64,000 nt of DNA from NCBI RefSeq assembly GCF_009733795.1, contig NZ_WNXX01000005.1, forward strand, positions 1-64,000, written 5' to 3'. Of this stretch, positions 6,529-32,352 are shown piece by piece. Every line of letters starts with the position of its first letter. The stretch's first letter is position 1. The translations under genes and the position numbers were made by a program. A model generated the notes under the pieces. The model was given only the letters and a program-made list of their open reading frames with translations. It was not told where the DNA came from and did no database searches. Origin of the DNA: Actinotalea caeni (GTDB lineage Bacteria > Actinomycetota > Actinomycetes > Actinomycetales > Beutenbergiaceae).

Positions 6529-7650
6529 TCACTGGTCGGCGAGCACCCAGCGGTAGGACTGGCTCTCGCCGGAGAAGTCGAAGATGTTGGCGTACGTCAC
6601 GGCGGTGACGCTCGTCGGCACGTCGAGCAGCACCCAGCCCTCGTACTCCTTGTCGGGCTGCATCTCGCTCGGCGCGCTCTGGCTCTCGTCGAGGCAGAAG
6701 ATGCCGGCACCGAACCCATTGGCCTCGAGCTTCGCGCCATCGACCTCGGCCCCGATCTCCCAGCCGATCAGGGTGTAGGTCGGCGGGTCCTCCTGCGCGA
6801 GCGCCGGCAGCGTCGTGATGTCGAACCGCAGCGCGAGGTACTGGCCGTTCTCCGCCTCGCTGCAGAACATGCTGTCGGCGCCGGGCTGCCAGTCGGCCAC
6901 GACCTCCGCGAGCCGCAGCTCGGCGATCGGGTCGCCGTCGACGCCGACCGCCACGGCCGGCTGGTCGCCGGTGAGCTCGACGACGCCGTCGCCGCCGGCT
7001 GGCGGGTCGGTGGCGTCGTCGGTCGGCTCGTCGGTGGGCTCGTCCGTCGGCTCGTCGGTGGTCGGGTCGTCCGTGGGCTCGTCGGTCGGCTCGGCCGTGG
7101 TGGGCGCGACCGTCGGGTCGGGCTCGTCACCGCCGCCGCCGAGCAGCGACGAGATCCCCCACGCGCCCAGCGCGAGCACGAGCGCCGCGATCACGCAGAC
7201 GACGACGATCGCGGCCGTGTTGCGCTGCTTGGGCTGCGGACCGCCCGGGTACCCCGGCTGACCGCCGGGGCCAGGCATCCCGGGCCCTCCCGGACCACCC
7301 GGTCCGGCCTGGCCGGGCCCGCCGTAGGGCGAGGCGCCCGGCTGCTCCAGACCAGCGCTCGGCGCGTAGCTGTACAGACCCGGACCGGAGCCGGCTCCCG
7401 GAGCGCCCTGCGGAGCGGGCGGGCCCGCGTTCGGCATCACCTGGGTGGGCTGGCTGCCCATCGTCTGGGTCGCGAACGGGTCGGCGGCAGGCGGCTGCTG
7501 CGCCGAAGCCGCGGGTGCGGCGTCGTCGACCCAGAACTGCCAGCCCTCGGGCGCCGGCGGCCACGAGGGGTCGGGTGCCCACCCGGGCGGTGGCGTCCAG
7601 CCCTCGGGGGGCTTGGGCCAGCCGGGTGGTGAGTTGAACGTCGCGGCCAT
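6529..7650 (-). CDS. Single-pass membrane protein with Pro/Trp-rich cytoplasmic N-terminus and DUF4352-like C-terminal domain
   Basis: A 373-residue protein of unknown role. Residues 1-35 hold repeated PPGW/PEGW tryptophan motifs common at the N-termini of actinobacterial membrane proteins, followed by a Gly/Pro-rich stretch to about 140. One hydrophobic segment (about 144-166, AAIVVVCVIAALVLALGAWG) is followed by a Thr-Asp-Glu-Pro repeat linker and an extracytoplasmic beta-rich domain. That domain has two cysteines (MFCSEAE and IFCLDES), as expected for a small Ig-like DUF4352 fold. The start at 7650 places the W-rich motif first. It may be a cell-envelope sensor or antigen; no catalytic motif is visible. 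Confidence 0.75.
   Translation of the reverse strand: MAATFNSPPGWPKPPEGWTPPPGWAPDPSWPPAPEGWQFWVDDAAPAASAQQPPAADPFATQTMGSQPTQVMPNAGPPAPQGAPGAGSGPGLYSYAPSAGLEQPGASPYGGPGQAGPGGPGGPGMPGPGGQPGYPGGPQPKQRNTAAIVVVCVIAALVLALGAWGISSLLGGGGDEPDPTVAPTTAEPTDEPTDDPTTDEPTDEPTDEPTDDATDPPAGGDGVVELTGDQPAVAVGVDGDPIAELRLAEVVADWQPGADSMFCSEAENGQYLALRFDITTLPALAQEDPPTYTLIGWEIGAEVDGAKLEANGFGAGIFCLDESQSAPSEMQPDKEYEGWVLLDVPTSVTAVTYANIFDFSGESQSYRWVLADQ
7005..7110 (-). repeat. Coding microsatellite for (T-D-E-P)n linker
   Basis: Imperfect 12-bp tandem units (variants of GGCTCGTCGGTG on the plus strand) encode TDEP/TDDP repeats between the membrane segment and the external domain of the gene at 6529-7650. Low-complexity coding DNA of this kind varies in copy number between strains. 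Confidence 0.7.
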
Positions 7651-10637: not shown

Positions 10638-10706
10638 CGAGATCGAGGTGTTGGGTCGAGATCGAGGAGTTGTTTCCTCGATCTCGACGCAGAACCTCGA
10701 TCTCGA
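10638..10706. repeat. Nested palindromic repeat (two direct plus two inverted copies of CGAGATCGAGG)
   Basis: Two copies of the 11-12-mer CGAGATCGAGG (10638-10648, 10656-10667) are followed by two inverted copies (10676-10687, 10695-10706). The inner pair forms a perfect 12-bp stem with an 8-nt loop; the outer pair can extend it into a cruciform. It lies directly after the phhA stop on the minus strand and probably terminates phhA, but its layered symmetry looks like a dispersed REP-type element. Confidence 0.75.
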
Positions 10707-10730
10707 CGGCGTCGGTCGGGCGGCGTCGGC

Positions 10731-28481: not shown

Positions 28482-29513
28482 GTGAGCACCCCCAGCACGA
28501 GCAGCCGGACACGGTTGACGGACCTGGCCGAGCTGGCGAACGTCAGCACGGCCACCGTCTCGCGCGTCCTCAACGGCAAGCCCGGCGTCGCCGCCGAGAC
28601 CCGCCAGGCGGTGCTGCAGGCGCTCGACCTGCTCGGCTACGAGCGCCCCGAGCGGTTGCGAGGCCGCTCCAAGGGCCTGGTGGGCCTGGTCGTGCCCGAG
28701 CTCACCAACCCCGTGTTCCCGCTGTTCGCGCAGCGGATCGCGTCGAACCTGGCGACAGCCGGCTACACGCCGCTGCTGTGCACGCAGGTGCCGGGCGGCA
28801 CCACCGAGGACGAGTTCACCGAGATGCTCCGCAACCACGGCGTCGAGGGGATCGTGTACGTCTCCGGTCTCCACGCCGACCGGCAGGCCGGCCACGAGCG
28901 CTACCAGCGGCTGCGCGCGGACAACCTCCCGATCGTGCTCGTCAACGGCTACCTCGACGACCTCGACGCCTCCTTCATCTCCGCCGACGACGGCGAGGCG
29001 ATGCGTCTCGCGGTGCGCCACCTGACCTCGCTCGGGCACCGCCGCATCGGTCTCGCGGTCGGCCCGCACCGCTTCACCCCGGTCGTGCGCAAGATCGAGG
29101 GGTTCGCGCAGGCGCTGCGCGCCGCGCTCGACGTCGACGACCCCGAGGAGTGGGTCGCGACGTCGCTGTTCACGCTCGAGGGCGGCCAGGCGGCCGCCTC
29201 GGACCTGCTCGACCGCGGCTGCACCGGCATCGTCTGCGCCTCGGACGTGATGGCGCTCGGCGCGGTGCGCGCCGCCCGCAGCCGCGGCCTCCACGTCCCC
29301 GACGACGTGTCGGTCATCGGCTACGACGACTCGCCCCTCATCGCGTTCACCGATCCCCCGCTCACGACGATCCGGCAGCGCGTCGAGGAGATGTCGGCCG
29401 CCGTCGTCCACGCCCTGCTCACCGAGATCGACGGCGCCACGGCGCCGCGCACCGAGCTCGTCTACGCCCCCGAGCTCATCGTGCGCGGGTCCACCGCCCC
29501 CGCCCCCTCCTGA
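28482..29513 (+). CDS. malR: LacI-family repressor of the maltodextrin locus
   Basis: A 343-residue regulator: N-terminal LacI helix-turn-helix (about 10-60; RLTDLAELANVSTATVSRVLNG) with hinge, then a periplasmic-binding-protein-like effector domain (about 66-335). Divergent from malE with a matching operator between them, so a maltodextrin-responsive repressor is the natural reading. GTG at 28482 with a GAGGAGG ribosome-binding site 7 nt upstream. Its stop is followed immediately by the left 28-bp repeat array. Confidence 0.88.
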   Translation: MSTPSTSSRTRLTDLAELANVSTATVSRVLNGKPGVAAETRQAVLQALDLLGYERPERLRGRSKGLVGLVVPELTNPVFPLFAQRIASNLATAGYTPLLCTQVPGGTTEDEFTEMLRNHGVEGIVYVSGLHADRQAGHERYQRLRADNLPIVLVNGYLDDLDASFISADDGEAMRLAVRHLTSLGHRRIGLAVGPHRFTPVVRKIEGFAQALRAALDVDDPEEWVATSLFTLEGGQAAASDLLDRGCTGIVCASDVMALGAVRAARSRGLHVPDDVSVIGYDDSPLIAFTDPPLTTIRQRVEEMSAAVVHALLTEIDGATAPRTELVYAPELIVRGSTAPAPS

Positions 29514-29597
29514 TTTCACCGCACTTTGCAACACACCCCGGTTTCACCGCGCTTTGCAACTGGCCCCGGTTTCACCGCACTTTGCAACAAGGTCGGG
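29514..29597 (+). repeat. Left 28-bp tandem repeat array (3 units)
   Basis: Three units with exactly 28-bp period starting at 29514, 29542 and 29570. Each has the 19-bp core TTTCACCGCACTTTGCAAC (one A/G change in unit 2) followed by a 9-bp variable part, CCCCGG-ended in units 1 and 2. The array starts directly after the stop codon of the LacI gene. The inverted counterpart lies at 30694-30806 beyond the DUF559 gene. The rest of the gap to 29724 has two TCCACAG motifs (29639-29670) and no gene. Confidence 0.9.
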
Positions 29598-29724
29598 TCG
29601 CCCGTGCTGCGTAGCGCGCGATGCGGTCGCGCGCCTATCCACAGGTAGCCCGCGCTGCACCGCCGTCCACAGCAGGGGTCGGACGCCTGAGAACCTCACG
29701 GCGGGGTGGCGTAGTCATCCTTCG

Positions 29725-30648
29725 ATGAGCGACGCCGTCCTTCACCACCTCGGCCGTGAGACCTCAGGAGTCTTCACGCCCGCCATGGCCGCTGCCGCCG
29801 GAATCCCTCGCGTCGGCCTGACGAGGATGCGACGCGCCGGCCTCGTCTCCCGCGTCTGCGGACTCGGCCACGTCGCGGGCAGCGGACGTCCGACGATCGA
29901 GCAACGCGCAGTGGCCGCGTGCCTGACCTGGCCCGACGCCGTCGTGTGCGAGCGCACCGCCGCCATCCTCCACGGGCTGCTCGGGGCCGAGCATGACGAC
30001 GGGCTGACGCACGTCCTCGTCCCGAACGGTCGGCGACCCTTTCGTGGGCTCGCCACCCACTACTGGAGCGTCCGACCGACCGAGGTCGAGAGGCGCGGCG
30101 CGATCGCTCTGACGGATGGGCTGACAACGCTCGCCGACTGCCTCGGTCGCTTCGACGACGTCGACGCCTGGGGTCTGCTCGCCTGGCTCGCCACCCGAGA
30201 CCGGATCACGGCTGACGACGTCGAGGCCCAGATCGCCGAGCGATACCACCTGTACGGCGTCCCACGGCTGCGCTCGATGGCCGCCGCGCTGCGTCGAGGT
30301 GCCGTCAGCGCAGCAGAGGTGGAGCTGCACGAGTTCCTCGATCGGTGCGGCTTCACCGGCTGGGCGGGCAACCAGAAGATCTGGCACGCGGGCACGATCG
30401 TGGCGAACGCCGACGTGCTCTTCGCAGAGGAACGCCTCGTCCTGGAGTTCGACGGTCGGCTTGCGCACCCGCGCGAGCGAGGTCGCACGACGCCCCGCCA
30501 GCGGCGCGACGACCAGCGCGACCGCCTGCTGCGTGCCCTCGGTTATCGGGTGATTCGCATCAGGTGGGAGCAGCTCGTGTTCCGGCCTGACCTCTTGCGA
30601 CGCCTCATCGAGTACGCGCTCTCGGCCGCACGCGAAGCTGTCGGATAG
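29725..30648 (+). CDS. AbiEi-like N-terminal plus DUF559 (PD-(D/E)XK, Vsr-like) nuclease-fold protein
   Basis: A 307-residue protein. Residues 5-80 resemble the AbiEi antitoxin-type winged helix (SGVFTPAMAAAAGIPRVGLTRM), with a middle region DGLTTLADCLGRF common to these proteins. The C-terminal 110 residues match DUF559, related to Vsr/very-short-patch endonucleases: Glu198/Glu200, Asp230 in NADVLFAEERLVLEFDG, Glu241-x-Asp243, and the closing ALGYRVIRIRWEQLV. All PD-(D/E)XK acidic positions appear present. It is an orphan single gene in a 1.3-kb unit bounded by inverted 28-bp arrays. Function is unknown: DNA repair, defence, or element maintenance are all possible. Confidence 0.8.
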   Translation: MSDAVLHHLGRETSGVFTPAMAAAAGIPRVGLTRMRRAGLVSRVCGLGHVAGSGRPTIEQRAVAACLTWPDAVVCERTAAILHGLLGAEHDDGLTHVLVPNGRRPFRGLATHYWSVRPTEVERRGAIALTDGLTTLADCLGRFDDVDAWGLLAWLATRDRITADDVEAQIAERYHLYGVPRLRSMAAALRRGAVSAAEVELHEFLDRCGFTGWAGNQKIWHAGTIVANADVLFAEERLVLEFDGRLAHPRERGRTTPRQRRDDQRDRLLRALGYRVIRIRWEQLVFRPDLLRRLIEYALSAAREAVG

Positions 30649-30693
30649 CACCGGGCGGATGTCTCCCAGGCGTCAACACGACGGCGGACGTTT

Positions 30694-30806
30694 GTCTGAA
30701 AGTACGGTCACACACTTGGGATGTTCCAAAGTGCGGTGACACCGCGGAGTGTTCCAAAGTGCGGTGAAACCGGGGTGTGTTTCAAAGTGCGGTGAAAGTG
30801 GGGCGG
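30694..30806 (-). repeat. Right 28-bp tandem repeat array (3 units plus 1 degenerate), inverted relative to the left array
   Basis: Units start at 30723, 30751 and 30779 with a 28-bp period and core GTTCCAAAGTGCGGTGA (third unit GTTTC). This is the reverse complement of the left array core except at the fourth base. A degenerate unit precedes at 30694-30722. The array ends just before the 3' end of the leftward amylase gene, so both arrays abut the ends of convergent genes. Confidence 0.88.
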
Positions 30807-30823: not shown

Positions 30824-32296
30824 TCAGGGGCGGGCGAGCGCGAGGGCGTGGATCGCGAGGGCGGAGACGGGGGCGACGGTGGCGGTGACCGTCCCGTCGT
30901 CGGCGACCTCGACCGTCTCCCCCGCGCACGCGCCGTCGACCATCGGGCCGGCGGCGACGTCGCAGTAGGTGCCCGGGGCGAGCGACGTCGACCAGGTGCC
31001 CTCGTACGGCTCCTCGGCCTTGTTGACCACGACGAAGCCGGCGTCGCCGCGGCCGAAGGCGATCTGGCGGGTGTCGTCCCACCAGTCGGTGACCGGCTCG
31101 CCGTGGGTGGCGTCGTGGAAGCCGACCATGCCCGCCACCGCCGGCCAGGCGTGCGTGCACACCCACTCCCCCTCGGACCGCCCGACGGCGGGACCCACCT
31201 CGGCCGGGCACGTCGCGTCGATCACGGCGCCGTCGGCGTCCTGGGGCGGGCCGGCGTCGCGGTCGGAGAAGGCGTAGCCGGAGTAGACGACCGGGGTGCC
31301 GTAGTCCGTCGCGAGCAGCAGCACGTTCGCGAGCGCGTACGTGGCGCCGTCCTCGGCGGTCAGCGTGCGTCCGTTGCGCTCGGTGTCGTGGTTGTCGACG
31401 AAGGTGACCGCGTGCTCGCCGTCGAGCATGGCGACCGTGCCGAGGTCGGCGAAGACCCGCAGCGACCCGCCCTGCAGCATCCCGACGAGGTTCTCGCCCC
31501 ATGCGAACTCGTAGACGAGGCCGGCGTCGACGTAGTGCTCGGGGGCGATCGGCTCGCCCGCGCCGCGGATGACCTCCTGCAGGATCGCGACGTCGTCGGG
31601 CAGGTCGGCGACGATCGCGGCGACGTCCTCGGGCGGCATGTGCTTGGCGGCGTCGATGCGCAGGCCGGTGACTCCCAGCGAGACGAGGTCGGCGAGGTAG
31701 GCCCTCAGCCGTTCCCGCACGCGCGGCTCCTCGGTGCGCAGGTCGGCCAGGTTGACCAGCTCGCACTCGCGCACCTGGAGGCTGTTGCGGTAGTCGGCGA
31801 TGTCGCCGTCGGGTGTGAGCCCGCAGCGGTGGAAGTCGTCCTCGGTCCAGATCCCGGGGTACTCGTAGTGGCGGTAGCTCGACCCCGCCCAGCCGGTGGC
31901 GACCTGCTCGTCGTCGCCGATCCCGGTCATGTGGTTGACGACGGCGTCGGCGTAGACGGCCACCCCCGCCTCCTCGCACCGCTGCACCATCGTGGCGAAC
32001 TGCTCGCGCGTGCCGAGCCGCGACTCGACGAGGTAGGAGACCGGCTGGTACGCCGTCCACCACTCCTCCCCCAGCACGTGCTCCTGCGGCGGCGACGTCA
32101 TCACCCAGCCGTACCCGGCCGGGCCAAGGGTGCGCTCGCACTCCTCGGCGATCGCGTCCCACGTCCACTGGAACATCTGCACGCCGACGACGTGCGGCCC
32201 GTCCTCGCGCTCCGGCGCGTCGCTCGTGCAGGACGCGACGCCCAGCAGCGCGGCGAGCGCGACGGCGGCCACGGCCACGCGACGTCGTGCAGGCAC
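30824..32296 (-). CDS. Secreted alpha-amylase lipoprotein (GH13)
   Basis: Extracellular endo-amylase that cuts starch to maltodextrins for the MalEFG importer. The 490-residue protein has a lipoprotein signal (lipobox GVASC, Cys23), then a GH13 barrel: DAVVNHM, nucleophile Asp in GLRIDAAKHM, acid/base Glu in AILQEVIRG and Asp in FVDNHDTER, plus a C-terminal beta domain. It resembles Streptomyces/animal-type amylases, with chloride-type Arg before the nucleophile. The GTG at 32296 (VPARRR) has GGAGG 5 nt upstream; a GTG 30 nt earlier is less likely. A DUF559 repeat cassette separates it from the regulator. Confidence 0.92.
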   Translation of the reverse strand: MPARRRVAVAAVALAALLGVASCTSDAPEREDGPHVVGVQMFQWTWDAIAEECERTLGPAGYGWVMTSPPQEHVLGEEWWTAYQPVSYLVESRLGTREQFATMVQRCEEAGVAVYADAVVNHMTGIGDDEQVATGWAGSSYRHYEYPGIWTEDDFHRCGLTPDGDIADYRNSLQVRECELVNLADLRTEEPRVRERLRAYLADLVSLGVTGLRIDAAKHMPPEDVAAIVADLPDDVAILQEVIRGAGEPIAPEHYVDAGLVYEFAWGENLVGMLQGGSLRVFADLGTVAMLDGEHAVTFVDNHDTERNGRTLTAEDGATYALANVLLLATDYGTPVVYSGYAFSDRDAGPPQDADGAVIDATCPAEVGPAVGRSEGEWVCTHAWPAVAGMVGFHDATHGEPVTDWWDDTRQIAFGRGDAGFVVVNKAEEPYEGTWSTSLAPGTYCDVAAGPMVDGACAGETVEVADDGTVTATVAPVSALAIHALALARP

Positions 32297-32352
32297 GGGC
32301 TCCTCCGTCCGGTCGGTGCCGCTCACCCTATACGCGCCCGGCCGGCCCCGCC

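Follow-up and report, generated by a model that had tools for sequence, protein, structure and literature searches.

The closest known parallel to the pairing of gene and repeats presented here is that of RAYT genes and REP elements. REPs and REPINs are extragenic repeats scattered over the chromosome, often as inverted pairs, and the RAYT gene is flanked by its own repeats (PMC3116915, PMC3733652, PMC8049555). RAYTs are described as passing from parent to offspring and as not seen on plasmids (PMC8049555). In the related TIRtrons a RAYT-like gene is bounded by terminal inverted repeats, and some of these repeats belong to dispersed families (PMC3733652); the main text of that paper holds no occurrence of the word Actinobacteria. 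On the side of the enzymes, the EDxHD nucleases are a known homing class (PMC3943268), and a DUF559 protein of Caulobacter has been described as Vsr-like and tied to DNA damage (PMC12907096). The Pfam name of DUF559 is still that of a protein of unknown function. Judged by titles and the first lines of abstracts, none of the open-access papers found on DUF559 is about repeats, and the open-access texts checked do not link DUF559 or PF04480 to palindromic or REP repeats. Open-access records on Pseudactinotalea, intergenic repeats, and terminators, in the portions available, contain no description of arrays like those presented here.

The locus analysed in this study lies in a window of 64,000 nucleotides, which is the whole stretch of DNA examined, from a genome of approximately 4.0 Mb (G000) of the genus Pseudactinotalea, and was compared with two genomes of the same genus, P. 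suaedae KACC 17839 and P. terrae KACC 16542. We consider it probable that this block is a gene-bearing member of a repeat family, whose AbiEi-DUF559 protein, predicted to have a Vsr/EDxHD nuclease fold, would serve the flanking arrays in trans as their dedicated partner, in a RAYT/REP-like manner. As with RAYT/REP, the gene is tied to repeats, it has stayed at one locus, and plasmid records yielded no homologs (E limit 1e-15). By this analogy the pair likely works like RAYT/REP, yet it is not a member of that group because the enzyme class differs, with a Vsr/DUF559-type nuclease in place of a Y1 tyrosine transposase, and because the transposase and the tag are missing. The window unit is a non-palindromic 28-bp tandem repeat in which neither a GTAG nor a CGTC tag was seen by eye on either strand of the window unit and the class A consensus; the letters CGTC are contained in family C of P. 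suaedae. A RAYT or IS200/605 partner was rejected, as the Y1 (HUH) transposase profile PF01797, at E 0.001, matched none of the three Pseudactinotalea genomes and one of 24 genomes in the family. With TIRtrons the locus shares a single gene between inverted repeats, but the enzyme is of another class and the arms are tandem arrays here and hairpins in other genera. These observations suggest an undescribed partnership between a nuclease and chromosome-scattered repeats, and the statistical tie between gene and repeats provides DUF559 proteins with a candidate substrate. Loci shared by the species carry different units, which makes it directly testable whether nuclease and repeat have evolved together.

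Organization of the lacI-Amylase Locus

The block begins with a left array of three 28-bp units on the + strand (29514..29597; unit starts at 29514, 29542, and 29570, cores at 29514-29532, 29542-29560, and 29570-29588). It is followed by a single + strand gene encoding a 307-aa AbiEi_4 and DUF559 protein (29725..30648), and by a right array of three 28-bp units on the - strand, inverted with respect to the left one (30722..30805; unit starts at 30722, 30750, and 30778), with a degenerate fourth, innermost unit (30694..30721, -) whose similarity extends over approximately 30694-30712. This layout, as well as the position of the arrays at the 3' ends of two genes, had been pointed out in the first-pass annotation and was confirmed. 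The lacI-type regulator gene (28482..29513, +), named by reading, is in sense with the left array and ends at 29513, so that the array starts at the very next base, and the amylase gene (30824..32326, -), also named by reading, is in sense with the right array, its stop beginning at 30824, 18 bp beyond it. With up to three mismatches, six core matches were found in the window, compared to none in 100 shuffled controls. The units had been called exact, but they are only similar, with identities to the reference copy of 84% and 92% in the left array and 89% and 79% in the right. Left and right cores had also been said to differ at one base; this holds for two right units (GCAAC/GGAAC), whereas the outermost right unit reads GAAAC.

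The annotation had further regarded the block as a cassette inserted into a maltodextrin locus and had proposed a comparison with empty lacI-amylase sites in relatives. The corresponding site of P. suaedae is occupied: a homolog (L084) lies there within the orthologous lacI-amylase arrays, its units are of P. suaedae type, and the proteins of the two genomes are 57% identical. Because P. suaedae has the gene and the arrays at the orthologous site, the window block is, judged from this comparison, no recent insertion, and gene and arrays have persisted at the locus in both species. The cassette idea also fared poorly elsewhere, since the five other array-enclosed genes scanned were ordinary (LacI, esterase, oxidoreductase, glyoxalase, and PfkB). 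A second inverted tandem array, with a 19-bp period (CGAGATCGAGG), occurs in the window at 10638-10715 between convergent genes, and its family is also present at G000:C22:106078 in the same genome.

Features of the Encoded Protein

The Pfam scan identified AbiEi_4 (E 1.7e-7, residues 12-44) and DUF559 (E 4.5e-6, residues 182-289), both above cut-offs. The predicted structure has a mean pLDDT of 57 and is poor outside the nuclease domain; the C-terminal domain is well modelled, with residues ~193-304 resembling a Vsr/I-Bth0305I-type nuclease domain. Alignment of this model with VIA-align ranked I-Bth0305I at Z 12.4 (97 residues, 2.5 Å), 3hrl at Z 12.0, and Vsr at Z 9.8, and the same ranking includes T. 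gondii mitoribosomal proteins at Z 9.6 and 9.2, an example of how the EDxHD/Vsr fold is shared more widely. In Foldseek, the best E for the Vsr/EDxHD fold was 0.024, below two mitoribosome rows, and the profile match to 3hrl was weak (E 0.0011). The top profile match, 7on6 (SAKe6AE; E 4.8e-9), covers ~30 residues and is presumably a designed protein, not a relative. On the strength of the VIA-align Z scores and the weak 3hrl match, the C-terminal domain is predicted to be a Vsr/homing-type (EDxHD) nuclease fold. D230, E241, D243, H248, and D266 are invariant in six homologs, and we take them to be the catalytic residues by analogy. In the modelled fold and in these invariant acidic and His residues the protein resembles the EDxHD homing endonuclease I-Bth0305I and Vsr, but it carries an N-terminal AbiEi_4 domain, and its gene is free-standing between repeats, not in an intron or beside a methyltransferase.

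Genome-Wide Distribution and Placement of the Arrays

Matches to the core with at most two mismatches numbered 134 in the genome of the window, whereas a control pattern gave none. Among the matches listed, 31 array loci were read (30 and the window), so that the genome holds at least 31. Only the window locus contains a DUF559 gene, the other 30 having none of their own, and the genome as a whole has two DUF559 matches against about thirty array loci. The repeat family was found in all three Pseudactinotalea genomes, with 72 unit pairs in P. suaedae, and many dispersed copies are likewise a feature of RAYT/REP. Outside these genomes, the unit was detected in none of 21 other genomes of the family and had no match in viral contigs. 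When the exact unit pair was sought in genomes of named species, only P. suaedae and P. terrae matched, records of the window's own genome being possibly left out, and in a sample of the class eight other genomes gave one or two loose matches each, the same as the control pattern.

A typical locus consists of a + array followed, tens to hundreds of bases further on, by a - array, with a unit period that is mostly 28 and some steps of 25-31. Long spacers are found in the window (>1 kb) and in L046 (3.6 kb), and eight of the 31 loci are one-armed. L042 of the same genome is the only paired locus among those read in which the - arm precedes the + arm. A de novo detector of inverted tandem arrays, applied to segments of eight genomes and to the window, had low power and misses the window arrays, with arms >700 bp apart. 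In another genus of the family (G009), a 22-bp tandem and inverted array directly follows a stop codon, and the genes around it appear to be convergent (L202, ~7145-7260); a homolog of the window gene was not found in that genome.

The placement of the arrays is also what could be expected of host 3'-end elements, that is, paired Rho-loading or insulator sites against read-through of converging genes, between which the DUF559 gene was merely caught. Of 68 loci in the three species, 37 lie between convergent genes, 29 between co-directional and two between divergent ones, a distribution shared with REP elements; the corresponding numbers are 29, 154, and 65 among 248 baseline gaps of ≥20 bp and 67, 286, and 66 among 419 gaps of any length. 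On their outer side, 89 of 114 arms face the 3' end of a gene, and these start a median of 12 bp past the stop of the gene in sense, although single distances may be off because gene positions came from a codon-usage-based caller. Single-armed loci (22 of 68) follow a gene in sense in 18 of the 22 cases, the sense strand of the arms has little structure and is poor in G (17-20%, where other 3' flanks have 32-37%), and the arms hardly co-vary as stems. However, such a role leaves unexplained why DUF559 homologs elsewhere have their own, unrelated flanking repeats and why the sequence family changes from species to species at one site, and we regard it as unlikely.

Two other candidates for the nature of the arrays were rejected. 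A CRISPR-like array does not agree with linkers that are more alike within an arm than elsewhere (G000 and P. suaedae). A giant RNA hairpin as the selected unit does not agree with opposite arms that are hardly more alike than different loci, with the single arms of 22 of the 68 loci, or with loops that in some cases exceed 1 kb; three whole array pairs fold well as RNA (z -11.0, -5.6, and -13.7).

Association of DUF559 Genes with Flanking Repeats

Six close homologs were examined, two in G000, two in P. suaedae, and two in G019 and G016, which belong to another genus of the family, and all six lie inside inverted arrays, of at least four repeat sequence types. The second gene of G000 (C22:100740) has five units of a 29-bp family, TTTCAACCCACTTCTGCCCCC, on one side and four on the other, and this family has two further loci within 160 kb of contig C22. 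The P. suaedae homologs, on C13 and C11, have a different unit each, L208 being inside arrays of the other family, and this genome has three more, weak matches (27-32% identity). The homologs of G019 and G016 stand between inverted units of ~41-43 bp of unrelated sequence. P. terrae possesses arrays (10 loci read) but no close homolog (best E 4.4e-5), so that upkeep of the arrays without the gene is possible. A search of 72,556 plasmid records (E limit 1e-15) detected no homolog, nor did a pattern-based search of viral contigs.

The gene in the window could be seen as a chance neighbour of the repeats, since it is present in one of 31 array loci, but this was overturned by the homologs inside arrays of their own. 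The first-pass annotation had held that arrays common throughout the genome without a DUF559 gene, and unchanged at empty sites, would show that gene and repeats are not linked. Half of this picture was found, namely arrays that are widespread and mostly without the gene, and it weakens the link as first drawn; the enclosure of all six close homologs examined by inverted arrays speaks for the link.

A profile of the six close homologs, with E up to 1e-20, detected homologs in at least 38 of 396 genomes of the order, a lower bound because only six candidates per genome were scored. From the 58 matches listed, 30 loci were tested, about the best per genome, with the window gene outside this set. 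Each locus was scored by its best inverted match between the 560 bp upstream and the 560 bp downstream (less at contig ends), with 870 mismatched pairs as null. Inverted flanks passed the 95% level at 18 of the 30 loci and the 99% level at 16. When only null pairs from different genera were used, 17 loci passed the 99% level, in 15 of 19 genera, and none of the 30 passed the 99.9% level, since the scores of some control pairs reach 131, we think via shared genes. Among control genes of similar length, taken from segments of 14 genomes, six of 534 passed the 99% cut, compared to 16 of 30 homolog loci (p 2e-18), and five passed among the 203 controls with ≥100 bp of non-coding DNA on both sides. 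The two best-scoring controls were themselves DUF559 homologs, the only two at E 1e-3 in 1.6 Mb of segments. When these two and five previously viewed loci (L231-L234 and L256) were removed, 11 of 25 loci passed versus four of 532 controls. The association of the gene with flanking repeats therefore extends across the order. The earlier guess of a RAYT/REP-like nuclease-plus-repeat pairing, for which the window alone is insufficient, is strengthened by these order-wide flanks and by the enclosure of the close homologs.

In many genera the flanks are hairpins that are nearly identical on both sides, as observed at the 14 loci read. L248 passes the 99% cut but is doubtful because its arm is 454 bp from the gene and it has a far longer direct repeat (score 326). 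Fourteen of the 30 loci fail the 99% cut. Two genera of one family (g31 and g178) account for seven of these, with no passing locus in either genus, so flanking repeats may be missing from part of the family; among the failures, L235 and L237 show weak repeats by eye. Dispersal outside Pseudactinotalea was sampled in 120-140 kb of each of six genomes. G019 had one clear dispersed array, and G578 had one by eye, with a match count no higher than between unrelated genomes. G504 had one further hairpin, of a second family, G459 only one GC-rich 18-base match, and the sampled DNA of G599 and G456 no dispersed copies. This weak dispersal (one of six clear, one more by eye) is the main limit of the evidence.

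Upstream of the homologs a conserved box was also observed, which was first noticed while reading flanks and then counted. A sense-strand TCCACA box no more than 250 bp from the matched start was present at 28 of 32 homolog loci (the 30 of the order-wide test, the window, and L208), compared to 31 of 1358 control genes, and at all 12 loci whose flanks were previously unviewed. Two or more boxes occur at 12 homolog loci, with a spacing of mostly 26-29 bp. In the window, the pair reads TCCACAG on the + strand at 29638..29644 and 29666..29672, the second 28 bp past the first, and we take this box to be DnaA-box-like.

Unit Classes and Proposed Mode of Spread

Units of G000 share their first 13 bases and then divide into two classes, A (TGSAACA) and B (YTTGCCGC). 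Along an arm, class A stands outside class B in 102 ordered pairs and inside it in two, and class B is the more decayed (1.09 core mismatches versus 0.64 for class A). Unit similarity in G000 was 0.647 between adjacent units of an arm, 0.533 between opposite arms, and 0.502 between different loci. Opposite arms and different loci gave 0.482 versus 0.466 in P. suaedae and 0.506 versus 0.483 in P. terrae, where adjacent units (0.475, n=16) were no more similar than others.

If the AbiEi-DUF559 protein is the partner of the arrays, its winged-helix half may recognise the unit and its nuclease half may nick or cut the DNA at or near it, and repair from another copy would then duplicate, homogenise, and spread the units. 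Most surviving copies would be those just past stop codons, where an insertion does the least damage. The low G content of the sense strand may in addition favour transcription termination, which could be a rival or an added benefit. The layering of newer units outside and older ones inside would follow if newer units were kept or added nearest the gene end. We therefore put forward, tentatively, that the repeats are spread and homogenised by cut-and-repair of a Vsr/EDxHD homing-type nuclease, not by a transposase, that each nuclease lineage has its own unit, and that the layered arms, with current units outside and older ones inside, could be a fossil record of specificity changes. Array-free sites exist in P. 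suaedae, and copying into such an empty site would be analogous to the behaviour of homing elements.

Comparison of Array Sites between Species

Seven of the 31 G000 loci, the window included, have a counterpart in P. suaedae with arrays of the same family at the matching place; one of the seven, L035, rests on a weaker gene match (60%). The P. suaedae units there mostly end in TTTCGACC or a sequence close to it, so that units at shared loci are species-specific. A further 23 G000 loci, L080 being left out, have a matching gene in P. suaedae. The TTTCAMCGCACTT unit was present at none of these 23 P. suaedae sites in the stretch examined; a different 28-bp unit, TTTCAACACGATTCCGTCCAC, occurs at two, other repeats were seen by eye at three, and at 18 no array was recognisable by eye in ~420-450 bp (e.g., L154 versus L038). 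The absence of arrays at many matching sites and their change at shared ones indicate that sites are gained or lost and that sequences change at the sites that are kept.

The 18 sites without a recognisable array, together with the inverted arms at both ends of the gene, would also suit a present or former single mobile element of the TIRtron kind, whose miniature offspring would be the gene-less array pairs. We find this improbable, as the spacers of the array pairs inspected among the matches listed have no common sequence beyond the units and the arm lengths vary. It is also at odds with the gene and arrays staying at one locus in two species while their proteins have diverged to 57% identity, and with the plasmid search (E limit 1e-15) and the pattern-based viral search, neither of which yielded a homolog.

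A defence or toxin-antitoxin role for the nuclease, with the arrays as its regulatory or decoy sites, would suit the AbiEi_4 domain (a likeness to type IV AbiE systems) and the conserved, often paired upstream box. It is very improbable, because a set of more than 100 dispersed sites, most of them at the 3' ends of genes, does not look like an operator, and because no other gene was called between the arrays (the neighbours being lacI and amylase), so that the AbiEii nucleotidyltransferase partner is absent and a nuclease domain is fused instead.

Additional repeat families were observed in P. suaedae at or near sites that match arrays of G000 (L138, L151, L159, and L070), including GTGGGCGCTAACTCACCGC, CGAGATCGCACCTC, and hairpins with GGTTCGAGGTAAT. 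In another genus (g168), two DUF559 genes (L235 and L239) follow apparently the same upstream gene, aroQ-like by reading, and are flanked by different repeats, which, from the sequences, looks like repeat turnover at a kept site.
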